From positions 62,001 to 126,000 of the forward strand of contig JAMXDE010000038.1 of the NCBI GenBank assembly GCA_026770025.1: 64,000 nucleotides of DNA. Reading direction: 5' to 3'. Each line of letters opens with the position of its first letter. Positions within the stretch are counted from its first letter, which is position 1. The notes under the pieces were generated by a model. That model made no database searches. It worked only from the letters and a program-made list of their open reading frames with translations, and was not told the DNA's origin. Position numbers and translations under genes: made by a program. The DNA is from Craspedostauros australis (taxonomy: Eukaryota > Bacillariophyta > Bacillariophyceae > Mastogloiales > Achnanthaceae). Positions 3,258-60,598 of this stretch are shown here, piece after piece.

Positions 3258-4038
3258 TGTTGTTCCAAATATTGTAGAATACTCGTCGGTGCACTTGATT
3301 TGTTCTTCTGTTGCTCCTGCTGCTCCTAATCTGCCAAAGCCGAAAACGGAGTTGGAGATCTTGGTCAATCGTTCCTTCCTCAACGCTTGTTGGTGTTGTC
3401 GAATGACGAGTGGTGCTCTGGAGAACAATGATGATGGCTCACTTTTGCCCTCACTCTCACTCCTTTCTTCTGCGATGTTGGAGGCGCGCACATCAACATC
3501 AACATCAACACGTGCGTGACATGTCGTGATGTGGTGACGCGGTCATCTGCTTCGTGATTGCTTGTCCACTTCGCCATTCGGGTCTTGTCAAGACACAAGT
3601 CACGAGTCACCACGATTTGGCACGACTACTCATCTGTCTTGGGACGATCAAAAAGAGTCGAGGAGCACAAGAGACGGATCTTGTATAGTGCTCGTTCTGG
3701 ACAGCGCAACAGCTAAGGCAGGAGACGCACACAAGCATCCACGCGGTTGCATGGTCTTGTGTGGTTGTGTTCGTGGACTTTGCCAGAATTGAATTCGATG
3801 TTCTCACAAAATCTAACAAAGACAACTCGCTCCCTCACGAACGCACAATCCAAACATCCCCAACAACCTCGCCACCTCAGCGCCCGTTACATTCGAATCA
3901 CCAAAGCAAGTGTGCCCCCCTCTCAAGCGCCAAACTGCACAAGCCAAAGAACGCAAACAGCAAAAACAATCACATCCACAGCAATCGGCGGTACCAACAG
4001 AGACAATCGGCAATAGAATAGAATAGATCAGAGCAATC
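3258..4038. other. Intergenic region between divergent genes
   Basis: Spacer between the thioesterase (-) and the CRAL-TRIO gene (+). It contains the open 5' extension of the thioesterase frame and a short (CATCAA)n run near 3490–3510, presumably with both 5'UTRs and promoters. I see no further gene. Confidence 0.5.
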
Positions 4039-5487
4039 ATGAACTTCTTCGCATCCATCATGTCCCAACCAGCAGCAGAAGCGGGGAAACAAAGCAACAG
4101 CAACATTGTCAATGACAACAACAACAGCAGCAACAACAACACAGACGACCTCGCCTCCATGTCCACCAACCAACGACCACAATTGCAACGATCTGCTGGC
4201 ACAAGATCTGTTGCTGTCACAAACTGCACAGACATCAGGGAGGAAGAGACAGAGACAGCAGCAACTCCGACATCGCTACCACCACCACCACCAGCCGACA
4301 GCACACCCATCCGCCCAGTTGATCGCCGTCTCTTGTACAAGGGATCCTTGGGCGCCGTGGGAGAATCCGTCCGTCGCTTGTCCATTACCATGCAGACATC
4401 CCTCTCCAACCTCCATAAATCCACTCGCCATCTCCTCCATCTGGATGACGATGACAGCGATGATGACAATGACACCACCGCCACAAGCGAGGATGAGAAC
4501 GATATCATCAAGCAAAAGATCAACTGGATTCTGGATCAGCTCACGCAAGACGAGCTCCAGTTGGCGGCCGCCACCGATTATGAGTACTTGACGCAGTACA
4601 CCGCCAAAAACATGGCATCGCAGGACCAACAGCGCAAGTACGCGACGACCATCGCGCATCGCTACCTCGCATCCAAGAAGGGCAACAAGAAGCTGGCGCT
4701 CAAGAAGCTGCGTTCGACTTTGCAATTCCGCAAGGAGAAGAACGTCGCGGATCTGATGACGGCATTCGATGCAACTGCAGACAACAACGACAATGATGAC
4801 GGTGGCGACGATCTCACGGAGAGCACCACGGAAGGCTCATCATCATCATCATCGCCCTCTCAATCCAAGCGACAACACATTCAGCAAAAGCTGCATCATC
4901 ACCTATCTTCCGAAAAGATGTACGTGCAAGGATACGATAAGGACGGGCGCGCCACCTTCATCTTCCGACCACGTTGCGTCAAGGGACACGACAAGGAATG
5001 GACGTTGAAGGAGGCCGTCTACACGATGGAACGTGCCATCGCCTGCTCGGCGCGACGACACCGCGAGCGAGCTGCCGCAAGCACCAATGACGACAACGAC
5101 AACAATGACGACTTCCCAACCATCAACGCCGTCGTGGATTGCGCCGGTTTTTCAGCCTGGAAGCATTCCCCGCCCATGGAAATCGGCAAGGAATTCATGT
5201 TGGCGCTGCGCAATCATTACGCCGGTCAGGTCCACAAGATCTTCATCCTCGACGCGCCCTCCAGCTTCGCCATGCTGTGGAACCTGGTGCAGCCCTTCTT
5301 GGGGTCCAACACGAAGGCCAAGATCACCTTTGTCAATGGCAAGAAGCAGCGCAGCAAGCTCGTGGGGCAACATTACGCAACCGAACAGGCATCGCCGTGG
5401 ATGCTGCCGGGCGGGAAGCAACCCTCCACCGTGGACGTGTCGCAATACTTGCGGCGCACCGCCTTCGATCGGGTGTTCGGGGAGTAG
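4039..5487 (+). CDS. CRAL-TRIO (Sec14-like) lipid-binding domain protein
   Basis: Single-exon protein of 482 aa. The first ~150 residues are Asn/Ser/Asp-rich and low complexity, ending in an acidic run. A helical CRAL-TRIO N-like segment (IAHRYLASKKGNKKLALKKL, then LRSTLQFRKEKNV) comes next, and after an acidic/Ser-rich insert the lipid-binding domain with MYVQGYDKDGRATFIFRP, VDCAGFSAW and the characteristic HKIFILDAPSSFAMLWNLVQPFL followed by KITFVNG. The fold binds small hydrophobic ligands such as phosphoinositides, and members act in lipid exchange between membranes. The ligand here cannot be told from sequence. The start ATG at 4039 is followed by MNFFASIMSQ, with no clear targeting leader. 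Confidence 0.85.
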   Translation: MNFFASIMSQPAAEAGKQSNSNIVNDNNNSSNNNTDDLASMSTNQRPQLQRSAGTRSVAVTNCTDIREEETETAATPTSLPPPPPADSTPIRPVDRRLLYKGSLGAVGESVRRLSITMQTSLSNLHKSTRHLLHLDDDDSDDDNDTTATSEDENDIIKQKINWILDQLTQDELQLAAATDYEYLTQYTAKNMASQDQQRKYATTIAHRYLASKKGNKKLALKKLRSTLQFRKEKNVADLMTAFDATADNNDNDDGGDDLTESTTEGSSSSSSPSQSKRQHIQQKLHHHLSSEKMYVQGYDKDGRATFIFRPRCVKGHDKEWTLKEAVYTMERAIACSARRHRERAAASTNDDNDNNDDFPTINAVVDCAGFSAWKHSPPMEIGKEFMLALRNHYAGQVHKIFILDAPSSFAMLWNLVQPFLGSNTKAKITFVNGKKQRSKLVGQHYATEQASPWMLPGGKQPSTVDVSQYLRRTAFDRVFGE

Positions 5488-19355: not shown

Positions 19356-21683
19356 TTATCTCGAATAATTTCCGACGATCAAAAAGTACCCCCTCGATTG
19401 GCCATGCCACTTGGCATGATTGACGTCATCCTGATCAATCGCATCGATGATGATCGTGCCGGGCCCCTTGATATTGTGGCTGATGAGTTTTTCTGTGGGA
19501 TAGGCCATGGGATCGAGGCTGACGTAGCTGTCGTTGGATTCGGTGCCCTCGTTGGGGCTGTTGGTCTGCGAGTCCGGGTTGGTGCTGAGGAGACCGCGCA
19601 CGAGGACCTGCTTGAGGACGGTCTGTTCACCTCCCTTGGACAAGTTGACGACGAATTTGGCGCTGGAGACGGATCGCGTGTAGACGCGGATCTCGAGAGT
19701 CTCGTTTGGATTGAGCTGGAAGGTGTGATGGGCCTTGCCGCCCTTGCGTCTGATGTGCATGAGGTCGTACTCCTGTTTGAGCAGAGCGGTTCCCAGCGAG
19801 GATGATTTGGAGGCCTCGCGCAGGAGGACGGATTCGACGGAGGGGCCGCCACCGCCGTAGTTGGCGGGGATCTGCGAATCGTCGATGAGCTCCCGCATCC
19901 TGGCCATGCCCCTCTTGGCGTTGGAGAAGACCTGGATGCGTGCAGCCGTGCGTGGGTCGATGAACTTCTTGATGACGGTCCAGGACATGGCGAAGAAAGA
20001 GGGCGCGTTGAGGATGAGCATGCAGTGCAGGGTTTCCGGGTAGAAGTCTGAGATCTTGCCCGCGATCTTGATGACGTCCATGGTGTCGGAGGTGAGGGCC
20101 GAGGTGGAGAGGTGGGACAGATCGAGGATGTTGACGCCCTCGCAGCGCACGAAGTTTGGATTCGCTTGGCGTGCGTTCTGCAAGGCAATCTTGAACTTGT
20201 AGACGAACTGATGCCAGAAGTATCCCTCCATGTGCTTGAGGGTGGTGAGGCAGAGGATGCCTTCCGGACGGATCTTTCCGCACTGGAAGTAGTTGACGGG
20301 ACAGCCGTTCTTGGCACGGCCGATGTTGAGGAAGGGATACTGCGTGAGGAAGACGCTGAAGGGCGCTCCGAGGGCCTCGTTTGGATCTGGGTAGAAGTTC
20401 CTGTCCTTGGCACGCGTCCATGCCTCTGCGTTGTCCTCCAAGCGTTGGAGGATGGCATCGACGTCGAATTTGGTGGCGCGCATCCAACGGCAGATGGTGT
20501 AGGGTTCGTCCTCGATGTCGCGCATCGAGTACACCTGCTCGGCCACCTCGGGTACTCGCAGTCGGACCTCGCGAATGAATTTTTGCTGCGGTTGAATGAG
20601 CGATGGGATGACGTTGAATGATGGGTGGAGATGGTCATGGAATTGCATGTCGTCGAAAAGAGAAGAATGGAGAGATGTGAGAAGGAAGGAATAAGGTTTG
20701 GTTGGCACCCATAATTCATTCAGCGTCATTCAACATATGACAATACTCCACAATATTGAACAATGAATGCATCGCTGGACACTCACACAAAGCTCCAATT
20801 CGTGCGGCGTGAGGGATCCCGGAAATCCCTTGATGGGCACCGTGACGGGTGGCGTCTGCAATGCCGCCACATGCTCCAACGTGGGCCTGCGAACGATTCG
20901 CTGCAGCCGCTCCGAACGACTGCGATCCAAACTGGAACCGCTGTCCTCCTTCGTGGCGACCGTCGCATCGCGCTTGCTCTCCTTGACTAGGTCGTTGGAT
21001 GTCGCCACCAACGGCTGCAGCTGAAAGGTGATGTAGTGCTGCGCTGGTTCGTCCGTGAGGAAGGTGATGGGATACTCGTCATCGCCCAAGGCCTCCTGCT
21101 CGGCATCGAAGAATATCATGGAATCGGTGTCGTTGATGGGTGGCCAGACGGAGCTGCCGACCTGCGATTGGTTGGCGTCTTGGAAATCGGCCGTGCGGAT
21201 GCTGGCGCTGGCGATGGAGCCGTTGCTGGCCTGGGAGGCGCGGCGTTGCCGTATCCTCTGCGTGATCCAGGAGGCCGGTCCGGGGCGTCGGCGGTACTTG
21301 CGATCTCTTGGTCGTCGGCCGCAGCCGCAGAAGGAGACGGCGCCCGTGTCGTCCATGAAGTCATTGTTCGCGTTGCTGTTTGCGTTGTTGGGGTGTGGCG
21401 GACGCTGCGTGCTGCCGCTGGGAGGATTGGGGACGCCGTTGCCTGCATTGGAAGCCACGGGGGTGCTGGCACTACTGAGGACCAAGTTGCCGGGCGGAGC
21501 TGACGGTTTGTTGGCGTATCCGTTGGCGTATCCGTTGGCGCCATGAACGCCATTGATGCCATTCATCCCGTGCGCAGTGCCATTCTCGTTGCCGTTGGAC
21601 TGACGCACGGTGCTGGCGATGGAGGGTCGCTTCTCTGGGATTCCTCCGGCCAGGGGTTGCTCGTGGGTGTGCATTGTCGTCAT
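19356..21683 (-). CDS. Sec14-like protein with CRAL-TRIO and C-terminal GOLD-like domain (2 exons)
   Basis: Exons 21683–20787 and 20585–19356 join in phase 0 to about 708 aa. The first ~290 residues are low complexity (Asn/Gly/Ser/Pro) apart from a Cys-Gly and Arg-rich patch. Exon 2 holds the CRAL-TRIO N-helix region (ICRWMRATKFDVDAILQRL), the lipid-binding lobe (RPEGILCLTTLKHMEGYFWH, VNILDLSHLSTSAL, ISDFYPETLHCMLILNAPSFF and IPANYGGGGPS) and a beta-rich GOLD-like C-terminus (LEIRVYTRS … GTIIIDAIDQDD … GYFLIVGNYS). This is the layout of Sec14-GOLD phosphatidylinositol/phosphatidylcholine exchange proteins of the Golgi and endosomes. The ATG at 21683 is used; the frame runs open a little further upstream but without an ATG. 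Confidence 0.9.
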
Positions 21684-45709: not shown

Positions 45710-48700
45710 TTAGATGTCGATGGAGGCGGGGACGTTCTCTGGCTTGAGGTACTCGTATGTTGGCTCGCCAAGGCGGGCATCCTCCTTGCTGCGCAATTCG
45801 ATCTTGTTTGTGATTCTCGCAAGGTTCTTCTTGAATGTGCGGTACGCCTTCTTTCCGTGCACGGTCTTGCCACTTTGGGTTGGCTCGAAGCAGTAGTCGA
45901 GGTCCAGGATGGTGTGCTTCGATGCCAAAGTTAATGCGTGCGTGGTGATCACGGCCTCCTGGGCAGTGTCCAAGGTCGGCATGGCCTCTTCGTACATCCA
46001 GCGCTCGCTTCCATCGGCCTCCCTCCAGTCTTCGACCGATTTGCGGAACCCGATTGGCTTGTTGGGTGGGTATGCGTAGAACTGAGGGTTGTGTGGAGGG
46101 GTGGTTTGTGTGGAGGCGTAATTGGTTGATTGGTTGGATGGAAAGCACGAGTTGGAAAAGGGAGGGGGAGTGTGAGTTGCGAGTTTATCACTGTAAAGAT
46201 GCAACCGAGCAAATGTGCATGCAAAGAGGAATTCCTCTCGCTGTTGTGTTGGTACGGAATCGTGTCATCGTACGCCATCGTTTTCAAGCCTGCTGCGCTT
46301 ACATCGTATTGCGGGAAGTTGATGGCGGCGTGGAATCCACTGCAGATCCAGAACAAGGTCTGCAGGGTCTTGGTAAGCTGTGCCTTGGACGTGAACCTTT
46401 TGGGGAAGCCCTTGATTGCCGCACGGCTTTCATGGCTCGTCTCATAGGCCCACAGCTGCAGCACGTCGTCGTCCGCGATTTCCTGATCGCTCTCGTAGCA
46501 CTCATCAACGAACTGCGTCGCGAAGATGCCGTATGCCTCCCAAAGCTCCTTGCCGTCGTTGCGGTAGCGGTAGTTGTCAAGCTTCACATCGTCTGTGAAT
46601 CCACGTCCTTCCATCTCTTCGTCGAAGGCGGAGGACTTGAAGAAATCGTAGGTCTCCCAGTACTTCAAGATGAGCTGCATGTACTGGCCGGTTCCGACAG
46701 ATGTCATGTAATCACCAAAGCTGCTTGGTCCGAAAGAGCCCAGGGTGTATCGAGCGGCGAAGTTGAGGAGGAGGGTGTCGCGGCACATCGGTCTCACGAA
46801 CGGGTAGACCTTGTGGTTGTGCTTGCGGAGCGTGTTGTGGATGGCGACGATGTGTGGCTCCATGGTCAGGTGGGTCCTTCCCAAATGGCTCACCCACTGT
46901 TGAACACGCGAATTTGGACAATTGCAGCAACAGCAGGAGGAGTGTATCGAATGAAGCAAGATGGACATTGCAGAATCAGCAGTAGCAGAAAGGACACGCG
47001 GAAAAGATGAACGAGAATGAGTACAGGAGGCAGCGAATAATCACTCCAAGGATCAATTCATGCGGGCGTGAACTAAGCGCGTATAGATGCACGAATCCCA
47101 GTACACAGATACACAGCGTCGGCATCCACACACACAAACACACACGCTATACCGTGGTCGTGGTTGGTCGCGTGGATGCGCCGAACATCATGCTCGTGCG
47201 CAAAAACACATTGCTCCATGCTCACCTCGTGATACTGAGAATCCGCGCTTGCGACGGTGGCCTTGGCGAAGAGCCACTCCCTTTCATTGGTGTTGCCGAC
47301 TGTGTAGACCTTGGAACCAGCGCCACGATCGAGCTGAATGGCCATGACTTCGAGATTCTTGAGGTCCTGGGTTTGGCGGAAGAGGATCATCGGGGCCTTG
47401 AAGTAGCGCGGTTCCTTTCCAACGCGCTCCAAGATGCCCATATCGCCGGTGGTGCTGAGGTTGTTGTACGCTTCAGGGTATGCCTGGTGAGGGTTCTTCT
47501 CGAGGTCGTCCAGGCCGATGTAGTCGACGTAAAAGAGCCTGTTGGCCTCAGCAAGAGCAGTGATGTTGGTGATATCCTCCTTGTCGTAGAATTCGAGCAG
47601 CTCGGGTGTGAGCTTGCTGCTGTCCTTGACGACTTCGATCATGACTGGGTTGACGCCGTTCAAGAATTGGCGGGAGAACTCCTGATCTTCCTTCCAATTA
47701 TCGTAGCTTTGCTGTGGGAACGGGAGGAACGGATTCTTGAATTCCAGTCCGAACGGTCCCTCGGCCTTGAAGATCTTCTCGTAATTCTCCTGCGAGGGGA
47801 GATCGTTGATCGTGAGCGGATTGACGGCCAGCCCCGCAGAACCCTTCAAGGTAAACGTCAGCGCTCTGAAGATCTTCTTGAAAGAAAACCAGTATTCGAG
47901 GTGTGGCACACCTTTGACCATTTTCATCATGCCCTTGAGGCTCTTGTGGGGGTACTGTGGTGTACCACATACGGAACAGAGGAATGTAGAGCATTGTGGA
48001 TTGTTCATTGCAATGGGTGAGAGAGATGTCGGATTGGAGAGGGAATACAATGAATGTGAATGTGAATGCGAGCGCATGTGAGCTCGGAAATGAGCGAAAG
48101 AAAGCGCCATGCCGACGGCCGCTCCTCTCTTGGGTAATAAAACGAAATGATGGGCGTGAACGCGCAATCCCAGACGGAAGAACGTACCTCTGCGTGGACG
48201 GGATAGGTGTCATACTCGTAGGTGGCGTTGGGCACGAGGGCCTTTGGGAGACTCTCGGCAACGACGTTGATGACGGAGGAAGTGTTGAGCTGGGTGCCAA
48301 GACCTGCGCCCTTGAGATTGAGCACCGTTCCGTAGAGGCCGAAGTCGAAGATCAGCTTGAACCATTCCGCATCGACGGCACCGCGACGGAAGTCCTTCGC
48401 GGCAAGGCGGAGGACGACGCGGACGCCGGAAGGCACTGTGGCCTTCCATGATTGGATGATGTAATCGGCCATTGCTTGTGCCGAAACCTCGGCGACAGCG
48501 ATTGGGAGGAGGACGAGCGACAGTGGGCCGCCCTCGGCCACGGCCTTCTGCAGCCTGGATGGCTCGCGCGCCACCTTGACAGTAGTCGTTCCGCCGGTTT
48601 GGAAGAACTCGCTCATGAGAGCCGCGTCCCCAGCGTCCATGGAGCTGGCGTCGCTGGAGATCTCCAAGTCTTTGGGATCGTTGTTTTGGACGGTCGTGAT

Positions 48701-48994
48701 GGTCACCTCCGTGGTTCCCTCCTCCGTCTCATTGATGACGGCGGTATCGGTGGTCGGAGGAACGCCGCCATTTTCGATCGGAGCGGCATCCAAGGTGAGG
48801 TTGCCATTGAGGTTGGCATCCACAGTGTCTGGGATGGTGTCTTCGAAGAACGGCTTGGTTTCCATCAACGGAGCGACGTTGACGTTGCGTGGGGCTGCCG
48901 CACGTGAGATGGCTGGCTTGACCATCTGAAAGGCGGCGCTTGGGCATGCCCACAGCAGACTGGCCGCAGCTGCAGAAACGATTTGGAATCTCAT
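45710..48994 (-). CDS. Plastid-targeted lipoxygenase, copy 1 (4 exons)
   Basis: Exons 48994–48188, 47954–47226, 46896–46303 and 46081–45710, all phase 0, give about 833 aa. Lipoxygenases add O2 to polyunsaturated fatty acids, giving hydroperoxides that feed oxylipin pathways. Non-haem iron ligands are all in place: His516 and His521 (WVSHLGRTHLTMEP), His701 and Asn705 (CSGFHAAINFPQYD), and the C-terminal Ile833 (NVPASIDI). The family mark RQFLNGVNPVMIEVVKD lies in exon 2. The leader MRFQIVSAAAASLLWACPSAAF-Q is a signal peptide with Phe at the cleavage site, followed by a basic Ala-rich stretch, as in diatom plastid proteins. No PLAT domain is recognisable; residues ~150–269 form a helix-rich module shared with copy 2. 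Transcribed away from copies 2 and 3. Confidence 0.95.
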
Positions 48995-51430
48995 TCTGTC
49001 AGAGCTTGTTGTTGTTGTTGTTGTTGTTGTCTTGTGATGTGCTTGTGTGTTTGTGTGTTGGTCTATTGTGTGGCTTGTGTGGCTTGTGAAGCGAGCGGAG
49101 TGATGTTTGGTCTCGTTCGATTTTATGAGATGAGATGAGGGTGCTGCTGAGATGGTCAACTGTCGTGGTTTGGTTTCATGGCCACGACAAGTGAAGCCGC
49201 GGCAGGATCGCAAGGAGCTGTGGTGGGGATGGTGTTGTTGTTTCGGTCATTGAACCAGTGCAAGCGTTTCTGGCTCCTTCATGATCTCCTTCTCCGTCTT
49301 CTCCTTTTTGGTTGTGCAGTTGTCGATGTCATTGGTGAAGTGCTGTTGATGGTGGATCCTTCCGTGAATCGGCAAAGGTGGAAAATGCATGGAGGATTAC
49401 CCAAATGCCAGCCGATTTCTGGAATCAGTCCCATACTGAGTGTTCTGTGGCGGACAATAACGAAAGATTCGCCAACTTGTCGACTGAGTTGGCGGGATCA
49501 ATAAATCTGAACGATGGAATCCTTTTTGTCATTCGACGCACCCAGAAGGGTTCTCCATCAATGTCGAGGATCACAAGCGATCATGTCACATCAAGCTCAT
49601 CCACTCGCTGGTCTCTCTCTCACACACACACAGCAGGACTCTCCGGATCTTTGTTTCGACTTTATGAAACATGGTCTTGTGGAGCTTGGCGACAAGGACA
49701 GCATCATTCAGTGGGACTCTGCGATACTGCTCACAGGATGGATGGGACAAGCTCCGGGTAAACAAGTGAACGTTGATGCTTCTCACCTTTTCGCGAGGGT
49801 GCCCCTTCTTGTGACACCTCCAGACCAAGTGTCGATCGAGAAAGGGCAGCATGAACATGACGCCAAGCAAAACAGAGGAACATACTGGATGCGAGGATTT
49901 GCGGATGGTACTGCGTCTCGCTTCCGCCACCCCTTCAAGCATCGCTTTTGCTCTAGCCGATTCGAATCGATTTGTTCGTCGAAGTCGATGTGATGTTGTT
50001 CTGCAATGATATCGGTACCGACTCGCGTACTTCAAAGTCGGCGCTTCAGTGATCTGAACTGCCCCCGCCCCGCTTGATACAGAAGTCTTCTCGTGGGGAG
50101 GACCGAGAATCTTAAAGCTGCACCAGATAGTGCTCGTAGCAACAGCAACAGCAATAGCAATGACTGGTCTCTCTGAGCCTCGCCAGGCCAGATCATCCAC
50201 AGGCGGGGAGAGATCGCGAGAAGAGCAATCGGCGAGATCGCTGCAGGATCACCAACTCATTCGATGCTATCACTGGATCAAGCACATCCAATCATCTTCG
50301 ATCCCAGCGGACAGGTTGTTGCATTGCCACCATCTCATCCACATGACTCTTCTCAGTTTCACCCTCTGCAATAAATCTCTTTCGAAACCTCTGGGATACA
50401 ACACTATTAGCCAAACTTCATTTGATCTCGTTCCCACAGATCTCATCATCATCACATGCATCCCATCAGCCAGGCAGGAAGAACGTTGTGGAGCTTCCCA
50501 ACATCGTTGGGGTGAGGTGAAATCATTCAATGTCATCGACAGCGATCCCAACTGCCCCATCGTCTTCCGGAGGCACGAGTGTGCATGTTCGGGTGCAGGG
50601 ATCGTGCTCTTCCGACAACGAATGACATTGTTCTTCTTCGCCTCCGCAAGTGGGATCTTTGATTCCTGTTCCTGTGACCGAGCTTCACACGGTGGTGATC
50701 CAATAAATCCGAAGCAAAGTGTGAGAACAAGTATAGCGAAGGGGACGAGTGTTTTAATCCGTGCTCTTGGCGTCCAATTGTGGATACGACCTTCAGATTT
50801 ATTGATCCAACCAATCGTGGCGTGGCAAAGGGGAACAATCTGGCTTCGACTTGCACAGAAAGAAACCTGGTGGGAATGATGGGAGAACACGGTATCTTGA
50901 TGTGCAAATCCTCCATGCACTATTCCGTTCTCACCTCACTTCGCCCACCTCACCATACCCACAAAGATTCAACATCAACAACACATGACGAACAACACTG
51001 ATAACTTCACAAGGAAAAGGAGAAGAAGATCGAGGTGGCCCACGACATCACTGCACACCCAAAGGGACAGTCGCACAACGAAGAACGAGAAACAACAACG
51101 CCACAGCAACCATGACCGCCGTCATCAGTACCGGCAAGGGGAGGAAGAAACAGCTGCAACGATGGCGGCGACAGCAGCCAGAGGCAATACTGCAATGACC
51201 GCAGCAGCTGCGGCCACTTCATTTGTTTCTCACAGCGCTTTTCGAAAATCCAAACGGCAAAAGTCGACATGCCATCGTTACAATCGTCCAGCTCATAAAC
51301 TTTGAAACTCGATCGCCGTCACATCACATCACATCACGTCTCGGCCAGATCGAATCAAACCAATCCGTCAACCACACACAATCACAATCACAATTACGAT
51401 CAACAACATAATCAACAAGCCTCCGTCAGC
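48995..51430. other. Divergent intergenic region between lipoxygenase copies 1 and 2
   Basis: About 2.4 kb serving as upstream region for both copies. A (TTG)n run at about 49008–49031 is near the copy 1 start and a (CACAT)-type run lies near 51318–51335 before copy 2. Open frames at 49.5–50.9 kb on both strands have no recognisable motif, and I do not call a gene. Confidence 0.55.
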
Positions 51431-54400
51431 ATGAGAATCCACATCATTTCTGCCGCCGTGGCCGGATTGCTCTGGGCATGCCCGAGCTCCGCATTTCAGA
51501 TGGCAAGGCCTGTCATCCCGCGTGCCGCAGCTATGCGCAAGGTCAACATCGCTCCGTTGATGGATAGCAAGGGGCTGCTCGAAGAGCCCACCACGGAACC
51601 CAATGTTGTGCCTGCCGACGAGGATATGGATTTCGACAATTCCCTCATCGACCAAGCAAACATCCCTCTCGGCGACGGCTCAGCCAGCGCTGACGAAACA
51701 GATGAGTCCGTCGAGGGAGAATTCGCGAGTTTCGAAGACGTTGAGGTCCTCACGGAGACTTCCGAGATGGACGTCGAGCAGGCGGAGCTCCTCTACGAAC
51801 TGCTTGACGGATTCCAAGCCCCCGACGACAAAACGGAGCCAACATCCGCATTCGGCGCGGTCAAGTCCGGAGCGGCCACAACGAAGGCCGAGGACAAGGC
51901 CGAGATCATGCAGAAATTCGTTTCGATGAAACCCAAAGAACCCCCCAGACTCCAGAGGGTCGTGAACGAAGGTGGCCTTTTGGCCATCCTCGTCTTCCCA
52001 CTCGCCGCGATCGAAGCATCTTCGCAAGCATCCGTCGCGTACCTCGTGCAGTTCTGGAAAGCCAACACGCCTCCTCTTGTTCGGCTGCTCCTCCGGTTGG
52101 CCATCAAGGATTTGCGTCGCGGTCAGCTCGGCAGGGACTGGGCGCAGTTGATCTTCGACTTCGCATTCTACCCAGCCGTCCTCAGCGCTTACAGCGAAGG
52201 CAAGAGCGGCGGAAGCGGTTCCGGCATCATCACATTCCTCAAGGAGAAGCTGCCAGACGCCTTGTATCGCAATGCCACATACGACTACGGAACATACGGC
52301 GGGCACGACGAGGTACGTGCATTCATGGTGGAGGACACAGATTGCGTTTCTACTTGGGAGCAATCGCACCAACCTTGATGAACATGAAATATGACGACTC
52401 TGCGCTCCCGCACACTCACATATGTGACAAACTGTATACACCTTCATTTCTCCTCTGCTTCACGTCTCCTCTTCGACCCATCCATTCCTCGTATCTTCGA
52501 TATCATTCCCACCCGTCGGTTTCTATTCATTGCCCCACCACACCCTTCTCCATTATGGAACAACCGCAGTATCCGGATTTCAACACAACGAAGTTGATGA
52601 AGAAGGTCGAAGGCGTACCGCATGTCGAGTACTGGTTCTCCTTCAAGAAGTTTGCAAGAGTGATCGCCGGTGCCTTGAAGACCCAGGCCGGAATCGCCGT
52701 GAACCCGCTCACTATCAATGACATCGCCACGAAGGAGAACTACGAGAAAATCTTCAAGGCCAAGGGACCGCTCGGTATGGAAGTGGACAATCCATTCCTC
52801 AAGCTCCCAGAACACGCATTCAGCCATTGGAAGGAGGACCAGGAGTTTGCACGCCAATTCTTGAACGGCGTCAACCCAGTCATGATCGAAGTCGTCAAGG
52901 ACAGTAAGATGCTCACACCAGAACTTCGCAACTTCTTCGAAAAGGAAGGAATCGTCAACCTCGAGGCCCTTGCCAAGGCCAATAAGCTCTTTTACGTGGA
53001 CTACATCGGCTTGGACGATCTCGAGAAAAACCCTCACCAGGCATATCCGGAGGTGTACAACAACGTCAACACCACTCAGGACCAAGAAATCTTGGACCGC
53101 GTCGGAAAGGAGCCGCGCTACTTCAAGGCCCCGATGATCCTCTTCCGCCAGACCCAGAATCTCAAGAATATCGAGATCATGGCCATCCAGCTTGATCGCG
53201 AAGCTGATTCCAAGGTTTACACAGTCGGGAATTCCAACGAGACCGAATGGTTGTTCGCCAAGACTACCGTCGCGGCCGCAGATTCTCAATACCATGAGGT
53301 AAGCATGCGATACGTCGTTCCACGATGTACCGTGCGGTGGGGCGCAATGTTATGCAGTGCTGTACTGTACAGCGTACTGGTGATGCTATCCGTTCAAAAA
53401 TATTTGCAGCTGTGGCAACATCATTCTGCAGAGAGTTGTGTGTTCGGCTGTCGATGTCCAATCTATCAGAGACCGATGCCTGTTTCCATCGGCCACACTT
53501 TGTCGACATCACACTCACAACGCCAAACATATCCCATTCAACATCTCCCTGCCCTCCTTTCCTGGTCTCCCTCTACCCTTGCGTCCAACATTTCGCACTT
53601 CGACAGTGGGTGAGCCATCTTGGAAAGACCCACTTGACCATGGAGCCGCACATCATCGCCATCCACAACACCCTGCGCAGATACAACCACAAGATCTATC
53701 CATTCGTCAGACCAATGTGCCGCGACACCCTTCTTCTCAACTTCGCGGCGCGTGATACTTTGGTTGCTTTTGGGCCAAACAGCTTTGGTGATTACATGAC
53801 ATCTGTCGGAACTGGCCAGTTCATGTTGCTCATTTACAAGTACTGGAAGGATTACGACTTCTTCAAGTCTTCCGCCTTCGACGAAGAGCTGGAAGGGCGC
53901 GGATTCACCGACGATGTGAAGCTCGACAACTACCGCTACCGCAACGATGGCAAGGAACTTTGGGAGGCATACGGCATCTTTGCAACTCAGTATGTCGACG
54001 AGTGCTACCAAAACGACACGGAAGTCAGAGGCGACGCCGTCCTGCAATTGTGGGCTCACGAAACCACTGCTGAGGACCGTGCTTTCATCTCTGGATTCCC
54101 AAAGAGATTCGAGTCCAAACCTCAGTTGGCCCGCACCCTGCAAACGCTGTTCTGGATCTGCAGCGGATTCCACGCTGCCGTCAACTTCCCACAATACGAT
54201 GTAAGTGCAACTCGAATATGGACCGTGCTGTGACTTGGTTGTGTGCATTCACGCACATGCATATTTTTATGAATACGATGTCTTGGCTCCCTCTATGCCC
54301 ACGACGCCACACGAAACCACACCGCATCCCCTCACACCACGCCTCACATCATCACATCCGATCTCCCTTGCACTGTTGACTCCCCATTCCACATGTCCCA

Positions 54401-54783
54401 TTCGACATCTTCCATTCCACCGCCACGCACAGTACTATGCGTACCAAGGCAACAAGCCACTCGGAATGCGCAAGTCCTTCGAACAGTGGAAGAGCGCAAA
54501 GGGAAGCGAACGCTGGATGTTCGAAGAGGCCATGCCGAACCTGGAAAGCGCACAGAAGGCAGCCACGACCGTGCAACTTCTCACCCTGCCATCCAAGAAC
54601 ACCATCATGGACCTCGACAACAACTTCTCTGTGCGCGGAAAGAGTGCGTACGGCACGTTCAAGAAGAACATGAACAGAATCGCGAACCATATCGAATTGC
54701 GCACCAAGGAGGACGAACGTACCGGCGAGCCGAAGTACGAGTACCTCAAGCCAGAGAATATCCCTGCATCCATCGACATCTAA
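51431..54783 (+). CDS. Plastid-targeted lipoxygenase, copy 2 (4 exons)
   Basis: Exons 51431–52312, 52570–53298, 53607–54200 and 54433–54783, all phase 0, total about 851 aa. Exons 2 and 3 are the same length as in copy 1 (729 and 594 bp). Iron ligands: His541, His546, His726, Asn730 and the final Ile851. The leader MRIHIISAAVAGLLWACPSSAF-Q is nearly that of copy 1. The N-terminal module (residues ~170–290) has RLQRVVNEGGLLAILVFPLA and VRLLLRLAIKDLRRGQLG, matching copy 1 closely. An acidic linker of ~100 residues separates it from the leader. It should have the same kind of dioxygenase activity as copy 1; positional specificity cannot be read from sequence with confidence. Confidence 0.95.
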
Positions 54784-55689
54784 CTCATGAACATTCATTC
54801 AAGCTCGGATACACATGATTAATTCATTTGAGCCACACTGACAAGTCCTTGTGTGGGAGTGTTGTCCATCGTCGTTCTGTGCCGTTCCGCGTTGTTCAGC
54901 ATGAGGTATGAAATGCATCAAGTCAGCCCCTTGGTATCCCTCTGTCTAGGCTCGCGCACGAAGCACAAGTCTCCGCGCGCTGAGCGGTGAAACCAATGAT
55001 AGTTATTTTTGCCAGTTTGAACGAAGTGTTCTGTTCACATATCTCTTTTCACAATCTCATTTTGGGAAAATTAAGCCAACTTTTGGCATTTCTCGATGGT
55101 AAGAACTCAATTTAGAGAATCATGTGAACGCAGGACAGACATAAATGGTGATCACTGATAGAGTTCTCCAACAGATCCAATGGAAAATGGCGCCAAAAGA
55201 AACTGCAAAACCGAATGGTATCTTGATCCATATCCTTTTTCTCTCGACAGTGCCATACTCTCAGAGTACGGGGTAGGCACTGGATGCATCGAGGTTGCGA
55301 TTGTGAAGAAGTCCTGCGAACACAACCAGCAATGCTGCAGAATTCTCAATTGATGGCGTAGCGAGCCACAGATGCAACATTCTCGTCACCCCAGAACACT
55401 TCCGCTTCTGCCTCCACATCTCTCCCCACCAATCACAATTGGGGGCCAAACCAAGACGTTACACCAATCACGGTTCGCAAGAGCAGACTAGGTTGACTCC
55501 AAGTCGCACCAATTGCGATCAAAGCCCTTCAACGTCGTCCCATTCCTGCACAAGCCGAGCGAACTTTCTAATACTTCGTTGAGCAAGTTCTTCGCAAGAT
55601 TTTGGGTTTCTATCTCTTCCATAATATCGAAGAGGAGGTCGTGCATTGACTATGGCCATAGAGTGAGGTGACACACTCCAAATCAGCGC

Positions 55690-55790
55690 CCAACAGTTCC
55701 CAACTGAAACGCTCACCTGTTCGACTTGCAGTTGGGCATGAACTGCAGGCGAAATGGCGCGAGTTGAATCCTTCATGGCCTCCACCTCTT
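55690..55790. repeat. Diverged duplicate of the block at 60184–60262
   Basis: Shares TCGACTTGCAGTT and ATGGCGCGAGTTG in the same order and near-equal spacing with the sequence after copy 3, plus CCCAACAGT just upstream (with an insertion here). It is probably a remnant of the duplication that produced copies 2 and 3. Confidence 0.65.
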
Positions 55791-56173
55791 ATTGGTTTTG
55801 CTCTTGGAAGTCGCGGCCAGCGCAACCCGATCTGACCTCAGCCAGCAGGATTATCGATTCCTGCATGGCTGTGCTACGCTTCTCAACCTCATCGGATTTA
55901 GTGGGGCTTGGGCGTAATAAATTCGAGCTCAAACTGTGAGGAGATTTATATGAGAAGCGACGAAAGAATTTATTGGACCAGAATTGACGAAACGTGGCCA
56001 GTCGTGTCACTTCGCTCGGAGTTATGATTCCCACCAACCTTTCGATGGTACACAGAACAGCGCAATCTTACATTGCGACAGTCACACAAAGAGGCCGTGC
56101 GGAACGAAAACGAGAAACTTTGGTGTGCTCCGTCCTCTGTGCTTGTTTCTTTCTCGAATCGGAAAAGATACGG

Positions 56174-56258
56174 CATCGACATCGACATCGACATCGACAT
56201 CGACATCAACATCAACATCAACAACACCTCACCTCACCTCACTTCACCTCACCTCATC
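56174..56258. repeat. (GACATC)n / (ACATCA)n hexamer run followed by (CTCAC)n
   Basis: About eight units of GACATC changing to ACATCA, then several CTCAC pentamers, 440 bp upstream of the copy 3 start codon. Confidence 0.9.
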
Positions 56259-56695
56259 ACTACGACTCGCAGAGGCACCGCCGGCTGGCATCAATAGCCG
56301 CAGCCAAAGCATCGCAGGAGAGGACTTCAGATCGGTTTTATCACCCCAGCTGATTACACTCGCACAATCAAGGATGGTTTCAACAAAAGCAGCACATCAT
56401 GCTGGCAACAACGCTACACCACACGCAAATCAATGACAACAGCGACACCACCAGTAGGAGTAGCGACGACAACAAGCAAAAGCCGCGGCAAGAGGCCTGT
56501 TGTCTTAGTGCAATCCCCGCGGTGCTGCGTGCAAGTTCACGCCGAACCTCAAAAGAGTTCATTCCAGCACTCGAATCATCTCATAAAAATCGAAAGCGGA
56601 TCAAGAACAATCCGCTCAACGCACAAGCGCACAAAAGCAAGCAATAACGCCAACACAAAACGCCAACAACGAAAGCAACAGCAAACACCGGCAAC

Positions 56696-59600
56696 ATGAA
56701 GCTCCACCTCATTTCTGCTGCCGCATCTGGGCTGCTCTGGGCACGCCCAGGTTCCGCCTTTCAAGCGGCGAAGCCCTTCATCCACCGTGCTGCCGTCCCG
56801 CGCACCGTCAACATCAGCCCATTGATGGTCAGCACGGAGAGTGATGTCGCCGATGCCATTGAGGATGATGCCACCGAGACGTCCGACCTGACCGAAAAGC
56901 AGGCACTGGTTGTAGCAAAGATGCTTAGCAACCTCGAATCTATCGCTGACCTCTCTGGCGCAGAGACAACAGCCGATGTGTTGGAAGTGGCTCGATTGTT
57001 TGCGCGATTGGTGTCGAAAGACTTGAGTCGTGGTCAATCGAACACCGAGTTGGAAAAGGAATTCGAGAAACTGGGCAAGGAGATCTTTGAATATGGCCTC
57101 GCTCTCTATAGCCCGGCCATGTGGGCATCCTACACGTCGGAAGTAGGCCAAGCAATTGCAAGTGGTGCGGAAGGAAGCATGAGTCTTGACATCTCTCACG
57201 TCGCAGACTTGGCCATCGACGAAGCCTCCACCAGCGATGAAAGTTCCACCAGCGATGAAGGTTCCGCCGGCAGCTCAAGTTTGATAAAGACCATTCAAGA
57301 GCTCCTTCCAAACGCGCTTGAGCGCCGTGTCAACTTCGAGTACAACACCTATGGAATTCATGCAGAGGTGGGTCTGGGTATGCTTCGGAGTGCTTGGGAG
57401 TGCGTTTTTTTTCGGAGACCGTCAGGCTCATATTCATGAAAACAGAATCACAAAGGATGCCTGCTTGCATCAATTCACACTCACACTCACACTCGCACTC
57501 GCACTCACACACGTACTCCATCCATCTTCCCCTTCCAACATATCCGTGCCACAACATCCTACCCCTTCCTTGTCAATGCACCGCACTGTGCTGCATCGAA
57601 CGCAGTATCCTGATGTCGAGCTCGACGGGATGATGAAAATGATCGATGGTGTGCCCAGTGTTGAGTACTGGTTCTCCCTCAAGAAGTTCGTGAGGGTTTT
57701 CGCCCAAGTCTTGAAGGTCCAAGCTGGACTCAAGTTGACTGGGCTCGGCCCCGATGCTGTTAGCACCAAGGAAAACTATGAGAAGCTCTTTCAGCGACCG
57801 GGGCTTTTCTATGGCCACTACCCCAACCCCTATCTGCCAGCCCCCCAAAATGCTATCGACAATTGGGACAAGGATAAGGAGTTCGCTCGCCAGTTCTTGA
57901 ACGGCGTCAACCCAGTCATGATCGAAGTGGTCAAGGACAGCGCCAAGCTCACACCAGAGATGATGAAGTTCTTCGGAAACAAAGAGGGCGTCGACATCGA
58001 TGCTCTCGCGAAGGACAACAAGCTCTTTTACGTTGACTACGTTGGATTGGCAGACCTCAAGAAGACGCCTCATCAAGCATATCCAAAGGCGTACAACAAC
58101 GAAAAAACCCTTGATCCCAACAACCCTGCGGACAAAAAGATCTTGGACAAGGTTGGAAAAGAACCACGCTACTTCAAGGCACCTATGATCGTGTTCCGCA
58201 AGACTGAGGATCTCAAGAATATCGAGATCATGGCCATCCAGCTCGATCGTGAGGCTGATTCCAAGGTCTACACTGCTGATAACTCGGGCGATATGGAATG
58301 GCAATTTGCCAAGACGACAGTCGCAACCGCAGACTCCCAGTACCATCAGGTGAGCACACCGAGCGCGACTTGCTCACGCCAATTGCGACACAAACAACGG
58401 ATACGTACGAAGAATTGCTTGTTCGCCTATCTGCAATGCGACGTTTGGGGTTGGTGATTCTCGACAGCACCGTTCTTGGAATTCTATTCATCTCCTCGCT
58501 GTTATCTATCACCTCCTGTCGCTATGTGCCAATGATGCCATCACCAAACTCAATCCTCTCTCTTTCTCTTCTCTACTGCTTTACTTGTACATCCACGCAC
58601 ACATCCATGTGCGTATGGTTATGCCACTCTTCTTCCTCCTCATGTATTCAATAGTGGTTGAGCCACTTGGGGAAGACCCATTTGACCATGGAACCACACA
58701 TCGTCGCCATCCACAACACGCTCCGCCGCCACGACCACAAGCTCTATCCATTCGTCAGGCCAATGTGTCGTGACACCCTCCTTCTCAACTACGCAGCGCG
58801 TCAAACGTTGGCCAAGTTTGGACCGAACAGCTTTGGTGATTACATGACATCTGTCGGAACTGGCCAATTCATGCAACTCATCCTGAAGTATTGGGAATCT
58901 TACGACTTCTTCAAGTCTTCTGCCTTCGACGAAGAACTCAAAGGTCGCGGATTCACCGACGATGTGGATCTTGGAAACTATCGCTACCGCACCGATGGCC
59001 AGAAGATCTGGGACGCATACGGCCGCTTCGCAACGAGCTACGTCGACGAGTGCTACAAGAGCGACACAGAAGTTGTGAACGACAAGATCTTGCAGAAGTG
59101 GGCTCACGAAACTAGTGATCCGGGGTGTGCTGCAGTCAAGAAGTTTCCCGGGAAGTTCGAGTCCAAGGCCCAGTTGGCTAAGACTTTGCAGACTCTCTTC
59201 TGGATCTGCAGTGGATTTCACGCTGCCGTCAATTTCCCGCAGTACGATGTGAGTACATCTTGAAAGTGACATGAGTGATGGCTCATGGTTTGTCTCGCTG
59301 CGGAGACTGCTTGGCATGACGACTAGTTTTCCCGATTGCCCTCTTTGTGCGCACGCCATATCCTCATCCCACTTCCCCCTATTTGTTCCATTCCTTCTCT
59401 TTGCGTCGACCGCCTTTTTACCATACATTCTCCCTTTGCTCTGCATATGCAGTTCTACACATTTCAAGCCAACAAACCACTCGGGTTCCGCAAGTCCTTC
59501 GAACAGTGGGAGGAAGCTGCCGGAAGCGAAGACTGGATGTTCGAAGAGGCCATGCCGAAGATGGACAGGGCAAAGGAGACCATATCTACCGCGACCGTCT

Positions 59601-59803
59601 TGACTCTTCCATCCGAGCACACCATCCTGGATCTGGACTACTCTTTCGACAAGATTGGAACGGATTCATACAAGGCATTCAAGCAGGAGTTGAAGACCAT
59701 CTCATCTGAGATCGATGCGCAAAACGAGAAAGGAGCTCGCAGCGGCGAGCCAAAGTACGAATACCTCAAGCCAGAGAATGTCCCTGCCTCCATCGACATC
59801 TAG
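56696..59803 (+). CDS. Plastid-targeted lipoxygenase, copy 3 with shortened N-terminal module (4 exons)
   Basis: Exons 56696–57367, 57606–58349, 58655–59248 and 59453–59803, all phase 0, total about 786 aa. Iron ligands: His476, His481, His661, Asn665 and final Ile786. Exon 2 is 744 bp, 15 bp longer than in copies 1 and 2, partly from an insert around DPNNPADKKIL. Exon 3 is again 594 bp. The leader MKLHLISAAASGLLWARPGSAF-Q keeps the plastid motif. Exon 1 is the shortest of the three: it lacks the hydrophobic RLQ…EGG segment of the N-terminal module but keeps its SKDLSRGQ and LPNALE parts. WVSHL is WLSHL here. The catalytic core looks complete, so the shorter N-terminus may alter membrane or substrate contact. 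Confidence 0.95.
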
Positions 59804-60598
59804 AGCGTTCGTGTCCTTTGATGTCTGCCGTAGAAACAGTCGGAGCTTTGCTCTGCTGTGAGACCAGACGGCACGCTCAGACCCAACCCAACCAGACCAA
59901 CCTTACCGAATCCAATCCACTTGCCTATCCGGGGACTGTGGTGAACTACACCTTGCGGAAGCAAATGTAGACGTAGCCACGATCCTTTGGCAATCGTTAA
60001 AAAGTCTCTAGTGAAATACATACAAATGCAACTCGAACTACTTCCGGAAGTATCGGCATCGATGGCGTGGCCTCATATTAGTGATTCGATTGGCGACATC
60101 TACATCGACCATCGTCGCGGAAACGGTCAACCACCTTGAGACATGTACCAGTGAGCTGCGAGGTGAATTGGGACAAGCCAAAGTGGCCCCCAACAGTGCT
60201 CGACTTGCAGTTCCGAAGTGGCGAATGAGATGGCGCGAGTTGGATCTTTCGTCACATCTTCGCTCCTTTCGTGATCTCTTGTGGCTCCCTGCATTCGACA
60301 ATCAACCAACACAACCCAACCCAACCGTCCACGCCCCCTGCGAGGACTAGTGCGATTGTTCTTTTGCGAGAATGGTGCAAGGTTCACAACCACGATCAGG
60401 ATCTTTTCGGTGGGCAGACCACTCGTAGATTTCACGACAGCGTGTAGGGCCATTGGCTCCGCATGAAGCTCTCTCAGCTTTGCCTTGTCGTATTGAGGAG
60501 TGCGTGTGTGTTAGTCAATTCCAATAACTGCATTTCACTTTCATCGTCTCCCAAGGTCAGCTGTCCTTACGAGTACAACGACTTGCCGAAGATGCCAC
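59804..60598. other. Intergenic region between lipoxygenase copy 3 and the DUF229 gene
   Basis: About 800 bp between convergent genes. Apart from the duplicated block at 60184–60262, no feature is seen. Confidence 0.5.
60184..60262. repeat. Diverged duplicate of the block at 55690–55790
   Basis: Carries the same two 13-mers as the copy 2 downstream block, in the same order, about 400 bp after the copy 3 stop codon. Confidence 0.65.

Follow-up and report, generated by a model that had tools for sequence, protein, structure and literature searches.

Introduction

The oxylipin mixtures of diatoms are described as species-specific and as affecting grazers, bacteria and other algae (PMC11111692, PMC12653812, PMC7024367), and species-specificity is also stated for the products of lipoxygenases (LOX) themselves (PMC7024367). 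In the published accounts on which we draw, 45 diatom LOX are sorted into six groups, of which groups 3-5 differ from the canonical ligand spacing and group 6 is ambiguous at the third iron ligand (PMC10968607); a tree of diatom LOX is presented by genus (PMC12653812); and several positional LOX activities are described in Thalassiosira rotula, with plastid galactolipids proposed as the source (PMC4483651). Whether such mixtures are the work of a single promiscuous LOX or of several LOX genes is, in our reading, unsettled. Here we analyse a stretch of 64,000 nucleotides from the diatom Craspedostauros australis (hereafter the window), which corresponds to positions 62001-126000 of contig JAMXDE010000038.1 (C36) in an assembly of 74.8 Mb and 90 contigs, and which contains three LOX genes, named A, B and C. 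These genes belong to a well supported multigene family of plastid LOX with at least nine members in this genome (A to I). A genome in which nine plastid-type LOX genes are intact and mostly linked makes the above question addressable gene by gene, and comparing the recent copies B, F and G with the more divergent A, C, D and E provides a built-in contrast of dosage and diversification.

Comparison with described lipoxygenases

The nearest solved structures were those of the coral 8R-lipoxygenases (PDB 3fg4/3fg1; E 5e-47), whose His384, His389, His570, Asn574, leucines 385, 431 and 627, and C-terminal Ile are all kept in the C. australis genes. A difference lies at the oxygen-channel gate: the coral enzyme has Gly427, the LOX of Pseudo-nitzschia and Skeletonema have Ala (PMC10968607), and 9/9 of the genes found here likewise have Ala. 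In ligand pattern the nine genes follow groups 1-2 of the published scheme, a likeness drawn from the description given in that paper; the Pseudo-nitzschia arenysensis enzyme (PaLOX) and the Skeletonema marinoi LOX were likewise compared through the residue numbers in its text and not by alignment (PMC10968607).

According to that text, the Trp and the gate Ala are 47 residues apart in both PaLOX (389, 436) and S. marinoi LOX (267, 314), and 66 residues separate the pocket-floor Leu from the C-terminal Ile (638-704 and 533-599, respectively) (PMC10968607). The same two spacings were found here, 47 between Trp513 and Ala560 of A, and 66 in B, where they were counted by hand. PaLOX (QWC64745.1, group 2) resembles the present genes in ligand pattern, Ala gate, C-terminal Ile and both spacings, as well as in the E-W pair preceding the first ligand and in the Leu at coral position 589, each of which was present in 8/9 genes. 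It differs in its length (704 amino acids) and in carrying Val at coral position 620, where the genes described here have Ala, Thr, Ser or Gly. Moreover, a single LOX transcript is reported for P. arenysensis (PMC11111692), as against nine genes in C. australis.

The S. marinoi LOX, a member of group 1, shares the spacings and the ligands and has a Gln-Trp pair as in C. Its Ser526 falls by spacing count on coral position 620, at which D also has Ser, and the paper names Ser526 together with Trp474 as the residues replacing Ala589/620 in this enzyme (PMC10968607). Unlike the present genes, it has a modelled pocket floor with Trp474, and its length is about 600 amino acids by its own numbering.

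A stramenopile precedent for such a family is found in the brown algae Saccharina japonica and Ectocarpus, whose LOX genes are described as having multiplied through both tandem and segmental duplication (S. japonica has 11, with tandem clusters), with a strongly conserved exon plan and under purifying selection (PMC5712309). The brown algal genes differ from those studied here in that 15 of 18 have 15-20 introns, whereas 9/9 have three in C. australis, and the brown algal family is stated to group with prokaryotic LOX (PMC5712309). As regards a prokaryotic origin in our case, the 34 pattern-matching stretches from one contig scan included seven planctomycete relatives, at only 27-30% identity. 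The C. australis family is an expanded plastid LOX group of a kind known in principle, and gene expansion of this sort is not unprecedented. Among the open-access papers listed by our searches, none was seen to describe an array of LOX genes in a diatom, and a published annotation of this genome, if there is one, may already include the nine genes.

A nine-gene family sharing one exon plan

The original prediction, made from the window alone, proposed three complete LOX genes, one divergent and two in tandem, with one exon plan, introns all in phase 0, five conserved iron ligands and a LOX domain to be expected in a profile search of the spliced proteins. Models spliced from the raw sequence agreed with it on all these counts. 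A, B and C were intact and free of internal stops, encoding products of 833, 851 and 786 amino acids; 9/9 introns were GT-AG, in phase 0 and 204-329 bp long; all exons were divisible by 3, and the lengths given for exons 2-4 proved exact. The Pfam family PF00305 matched 3/3 window proteins (175.1 bits for the first-listed match, with a cut-off of 23.6), in which neither a second Pfam family (at E up to 0.1) nor, by sequence profile, an N-terminal PLAT/C2-like domain was detected. The five iron ligands (H516, H521, H701, N705 and the C-terminal I833 in A numbering) were present not only in these three but in 9/9 genes, with the canonical H-x4-H and H-x3-N spacing and Asn as fourth ligand that characterise the PaLOX/SmLOX type. 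Profile and ligands together indicate that the nine genes encode LOX, with predicted dioxygenase activity.

As for the proposed three-gene cluster, the local multigene family stood, and turned out to be larger than claimed, but the count of three did not, because the window edge cuts the array and D and E lie beyond it. Searching the whole assembly with PF00305 yielded 17 exon-level matches that correspond to nine LOX genes, with exon 3 above the cut-off in 9/9, and exon 3 of B, used as a query, retrieved the same nine (9 candidates, 9 scored, 9 matches). Identical PF00305 searches of 14 control genomes gave no matches. Such genome-wide match counts are lower bounds, that is, there are at least nine LOX genes and more distant paralogues are possible. 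Genes A to E form an array of about 30 kb, in which C and D are separated by at least one unrelated gene (DUF229); eight of the nine LOX genes are on C36 and the remaining one, I, is on contig C49.

All nine models were intact and consisted of four exons with phase-0 GT-AG introns and a 594-bp exon 3, and exon 4 measured 351 bp in eight genes and 372 bp in A (Table 1). The three exon boundaries fell in the same alignment columns in 9/9. Since all three intron positions are shared by nine models whose most distant pairs have only about 49-50% of their residues in common, the shared plan cannot be put down to chance. The intron sequences themselves were dissimilar; the exceptions were those of B, F and G, which resemble one another, and three short matches (20-31 bp) in which D takes part. 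If the genes descend from a single four-exon ancestor, this combination of a common structure and introns of diverged sequence is to be expected.

Table 1. Coordinates of the LOX genes, their exons and the duplicated unit around B. Positions refer to the window unless preceded by a contig name.
Feature	Position	Strand	Remarks
LOX A	45710-48994	-
LOX A exon 1, 807 bp	48188..48994	-	Signal peptide, AAF-Q plastid leader, N-terminal extension with hydrophobic stretch
LOX A exon 2, 729 bp	47226..47954	-
LOX A exon 3, 594 bp	46303..46896	-	Iron ligands H516, H521, H701, N705
LOX A exon 4, 372 bp including stop	45710..46081	-	Pocket floor, C-terminal Ile833 ligand
LOX B	51431-54783	+
LOX B exon 1, 882 bp	51431..52312	+	SAF-Q leader, hydrophobic N-terminal extension
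LOX B exon 2, 729 bp	52570..53298	+
LOX B exon 3, 594 bp	53607..54200	+	Two iron-ligand pairs
LOX B exon 4, 351 bp including stop	54433..54783	+
LOX C	56696-59803	+
LOX C exon 1, 672 bp	56696..57367	+	SAF-Q leader; N-terminal extension shorter, less hydrophobic
LOX C exon 2, 744 bp	57606..58349	+	YHQ end, with Q at the position of coral Gln380 (E in the eight remaining genes)
LOX C exon 3, 594 bp	58655..59248	+	Two iron-ligand pairs
LOX C exon 4, 351 bp including stop	59453..59803	+
LOX D	C36:130240-133247	+	Beyond window edge
LOX E	C36:134865-137870	+	Beyond window edge
LOX F	C36:258339-261699	-
LOX G	C36:322817-326190	-
LOX H	C36:535094-538286	-
LOX I	C49:283650-286729	+
Duplication unit of B (F copy)	50998..55231	+	F copy about 142 kb away, same contig, 94% nucleotide identity
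Duplication unit of B (G copy)	50998-54994	+	G copy about 206 kb away, same contig, 93% nucleotide identity

Predicted plastid targeting and N-terminal extensions

Import into the diatom plastid follows a rule: a signal peptide is followed by a positively charged transit region, with Phe at position +1 after the Ala-Phe (A-F) junction. Inspection by eye and with a simple script revealed a hydrophobic, signal-like start ending in A-F in 9/9 genes, and the 25 residues after it carried a net charge of +1 to +3 in 9/9. By the diatom rule, such a leader with its positive charge means import into the complex plastid, and the products of all nine genes are accordingly predicted to be plastid-targeted. 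Plastid-type leaders, as had been anticipated for A, B and C, were present in the whole family; the SAF-Q form that had been assigned to all three was seen in B and C but not in A, which has AAF-Q.

Exon 1 encodes 153-294 amino acids and is weakly conserved, with 13 invariant columns out of 353 in the alignment, although several genes have a common stretch around RLxxKDLxRGQ and a similar end (consensus TYPxHxE). A hydrophobic 19-mer with a mean Kyte-Doolittle value of at least 1.69 was found in A, B, F, G, H and I, and the maximum for any 19-mer of C, D and E was 0.96. This stretch suggests that the products of A, B, F, G, H and I may be attached to a membrane.

Selection and duplication history

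The ratio of non-synonymous to synonymous divergence (dN/dS) over exons 2-4 was 0.15-0.39 in all 36 pairs, indicating purifying selection. In a tree of the nine genes, midpoint-rooted for drawing only, the arrangement (A,(B,(F,G))) was well supported and was joined by C, D and E in one array clade, with H and I standing apart. Protein identities of 96% (F-B), 95% (G-B) and 98% (F-G) contrasted with the 35-44% by which the A, C, D and E proteins diverge from B.

The likeness of F and G to B extends beyond the coding sequence. The stretch shared by B and F (4.3 kb, 94% identical) comprises the gene flanked by about 0.43 kb on its upstream and 0.45 kb on its downstream side, that shared by B and G (4.0 kb, 93%) the gene with 0.43 kb upstream and 0.21 kb downstream, and the F/G stretch (4.45 kb) is 97% identical. 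Identities of 93-94% at the nucleotide level over some 4 kb might also be expected if F and G were assembly artefacts, namely misplaced alternative haplotypes of B, in which case the true family would number seven. We consider this very unlikely, since F and G occupy separate sites on the same contig with flanks of their own, the likeness to B ending 0.2-0.45 kb outside the gene; since the edge of the F copy meets a genome-wide repeat; and since the synonymous divergence (dS) is stepped (B-F 0.054, F-G 0.042, B-G 0.080) among three genes that are all intact. F and G represent dispersed copies that were made from B recently.

The repeat in question is a 768-bp segment (L014:4126-4893, equivalent to C36:257125-257892) that directly adjoins the F copy on its 3' side, the two meeting at the same base, and that has at least 42 matches in the genome (602 candidates, 40 scored). 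It is possibly a transposon end, and it may have helped the copying or have been inserted at the breakpoint later. About 3 kb from G there is a related copy in inverted orientation.

Within the array, C and D were 79% identical in nucleotide sequence through exon 4 and for some 300 bp downstream of the stop codon (window 59465-60111 against L012:2909-3556). Despite this, the exon 4 protein of C is nearer to that of E (72%) than to that of D (62%). Gene conversion or a conserved 3' region are possible sources of the C/D likeness.

Pocket residues: dosage or diversification

Pocket positions, chosen from the literature and not at random, were mapped onto coral 8R-LOX numbering. Positions 385, 431, 577 and 627 were invariant in 9/9. 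Position 620 was Ala in A, B, E, F and G, Thr in C, Ser in D and Gly in H and I, and position 626 was Ala in A, Leu in B, E, F and G, and Val in C, D, H and I; in addition, 589 was Ile in A and Leu in the others, and 380 was Gln in C and Glu in the others. Differences of this kind could shift positional specificity. The locus had originally been suggested to be chemically diversified, which our results did not show: floor residues vary, yet so do 83 of the 116 columns of exon 4, only 33 (28%) being invariant among the seven distinct genes that remain when B, F and G are collapsed. Positive selection on the pocket was considered and rejected. Positions 589, 620, 623, 624 and 626 vary and 627 does not, but because exon 4 is mostly variable anyway, variation at the pocket floor is no evidence of selection.

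It is possible, if doubtful, that all paralogues share one reaction and one specificity, the copies merely giving more enzyme or different expression timing. Such a dosage array would account for the 95-96% protein identity of F and G to B and 98% to each other (dS 0.04-0.08) and for ligands, gate and core Leu positions that do not vary in 9/9 genes, and it is helped by the location of the pocket floor in an exon that is so variable throughout. It accounts less well for proteins A, C, D and E, which are 35-44% different from B, for floors that read A/A/T/S/A at coral 620 and A/L/V/V/L at coral 626 in the order A to E, or for N-terminal extensions that differ strongly. The opposite proposal is that of oxylipin diversity from one locus, in which membrane-attached A, B, F and G and stromal C, D and E, having different floors, would also differ in regiospecificity. 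We regard it as unlikely; if true, one diatom would make several positional oxylipin families from linked genes and not from one promiscuous enzyme.

Our preferred explanation, which we hold to be probable, is that this region of the window forms the left-hand portion of an array of tandemly placed genes for plastid-targeted, non-heme-iron LOX. One four-exon ancestor would have given rise to A to E by tandem duplication, followed later by dispersed single-gene copying of B into F and G. Each product would enter the complex plastid, lose its leader at A-F and oxygenate polyunsaturated fatty acids freed from plastid lipids, for instance on wounding. Because the gate is Ala throughout, all nine enzymes are predicted to belong to the same stereochemical class. 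The paralogues would probably differ modestly in positional or substrate preference, through the pocket floor, and in membrane attachment, with the recent copies B, F and G mostly adding dosage.

Several points weigh against this explanation. Gene models, function and localisation were all read from the sequence alone, and the models of D to I were built from homology and splice sites, with start codons picked from the leader. The dS values among the array genes are near 1, close to saturation; the tree of nine did not resolve the branching order of C, D and E, and the tree of nine was used without an outgroup, the one that included coral LOX being poorly resolved. Finally, with only 28% of exon 4 invariant, diversification of the pocket floor is not distinguishable from drift.

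Gene neighbourhood

Neighbouring genes were surveyed in part, through 26 single-frame open reading frames (ORFs; 25 of the 62 listed and one other) compared with Pfam, of which 14 matched a family and 12 were without match. Neighbours of the array comprised a clathrin adaptor small chain, DUF229, a ubiquitin-conjugating enzyme (UBC), AAA_16 and a Copia-type reverse transcriptase, while CRAL/TRIO, proteasome, DnaJ-X, chromate transporter, GT61 and DUF6824 genes were found elsewhere in the window. The CRAL/TRIO lipid-transfer genes are two, at 4027-5484 (+) and 19359-20729 (-). EMP70 and polyubiquitin were among the neighbours of H and I; a long polyubiquitin-like ORF with ten matched ubiquitin stretches (L017:6937-9999) adjoins I on C49.

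The word locus in the original prediction could be taken to mean a pathway cluster, that is, a co-regulated oxylipin cluster including downstream enzymes such as hydroperoxide lyase or lipase. The adjacency of several LOX genes and the divergent arrangement of A and B would be in keeping with it, but the array neighbours belong to the families listed above; no known oxylipin-pathway enzyme was found among the 14 Pfam-matched ORFs, although with 26 ORFs scanned and 12 of them without match an unfamiliar lyase family or an intron-split gene could have escaped; and of the genome's 62 cytochrome P450 and 26 Lipase_3 matches found, not one lay on C36. The idea of a pathway cluster was therefore not sustained, and we judge it extremely unlikely; the region looks like an array of paralogues.

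Other expanded families in the assembly

Many of the 62 cytochrome P450 matches in the assembly are tightly grouped, on contigs C4 (about 970-1111 kb), C9, C13 and C40, the C4 group containing 12 gene-like matches within 970-1111 kb. Model diatoms have roughly ten P450 genes, a number far exceeded here.

The silicon transporter family (PF03842) gave 88 matches, 32 of which cover at least 480 of the 513 profile positions; 28 of these 32 are stop-free, and they are spread over many contigs (e.g. L028-L041). So large a silicon transporter family is in keeping with a diatom as the host, though no proof of it. Among 14 of the 28 that were compared, protein identity was 82-100%, with a median of 95% over 91 pairs. 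Three to five copies are given as typical, and 1-6 SIT1-2 copies are listed for 37 Thalassiosirales species (PMC10700740). The expansion in C. australis is extreme and apparently recent, and it may merit more attention than the LOX family.

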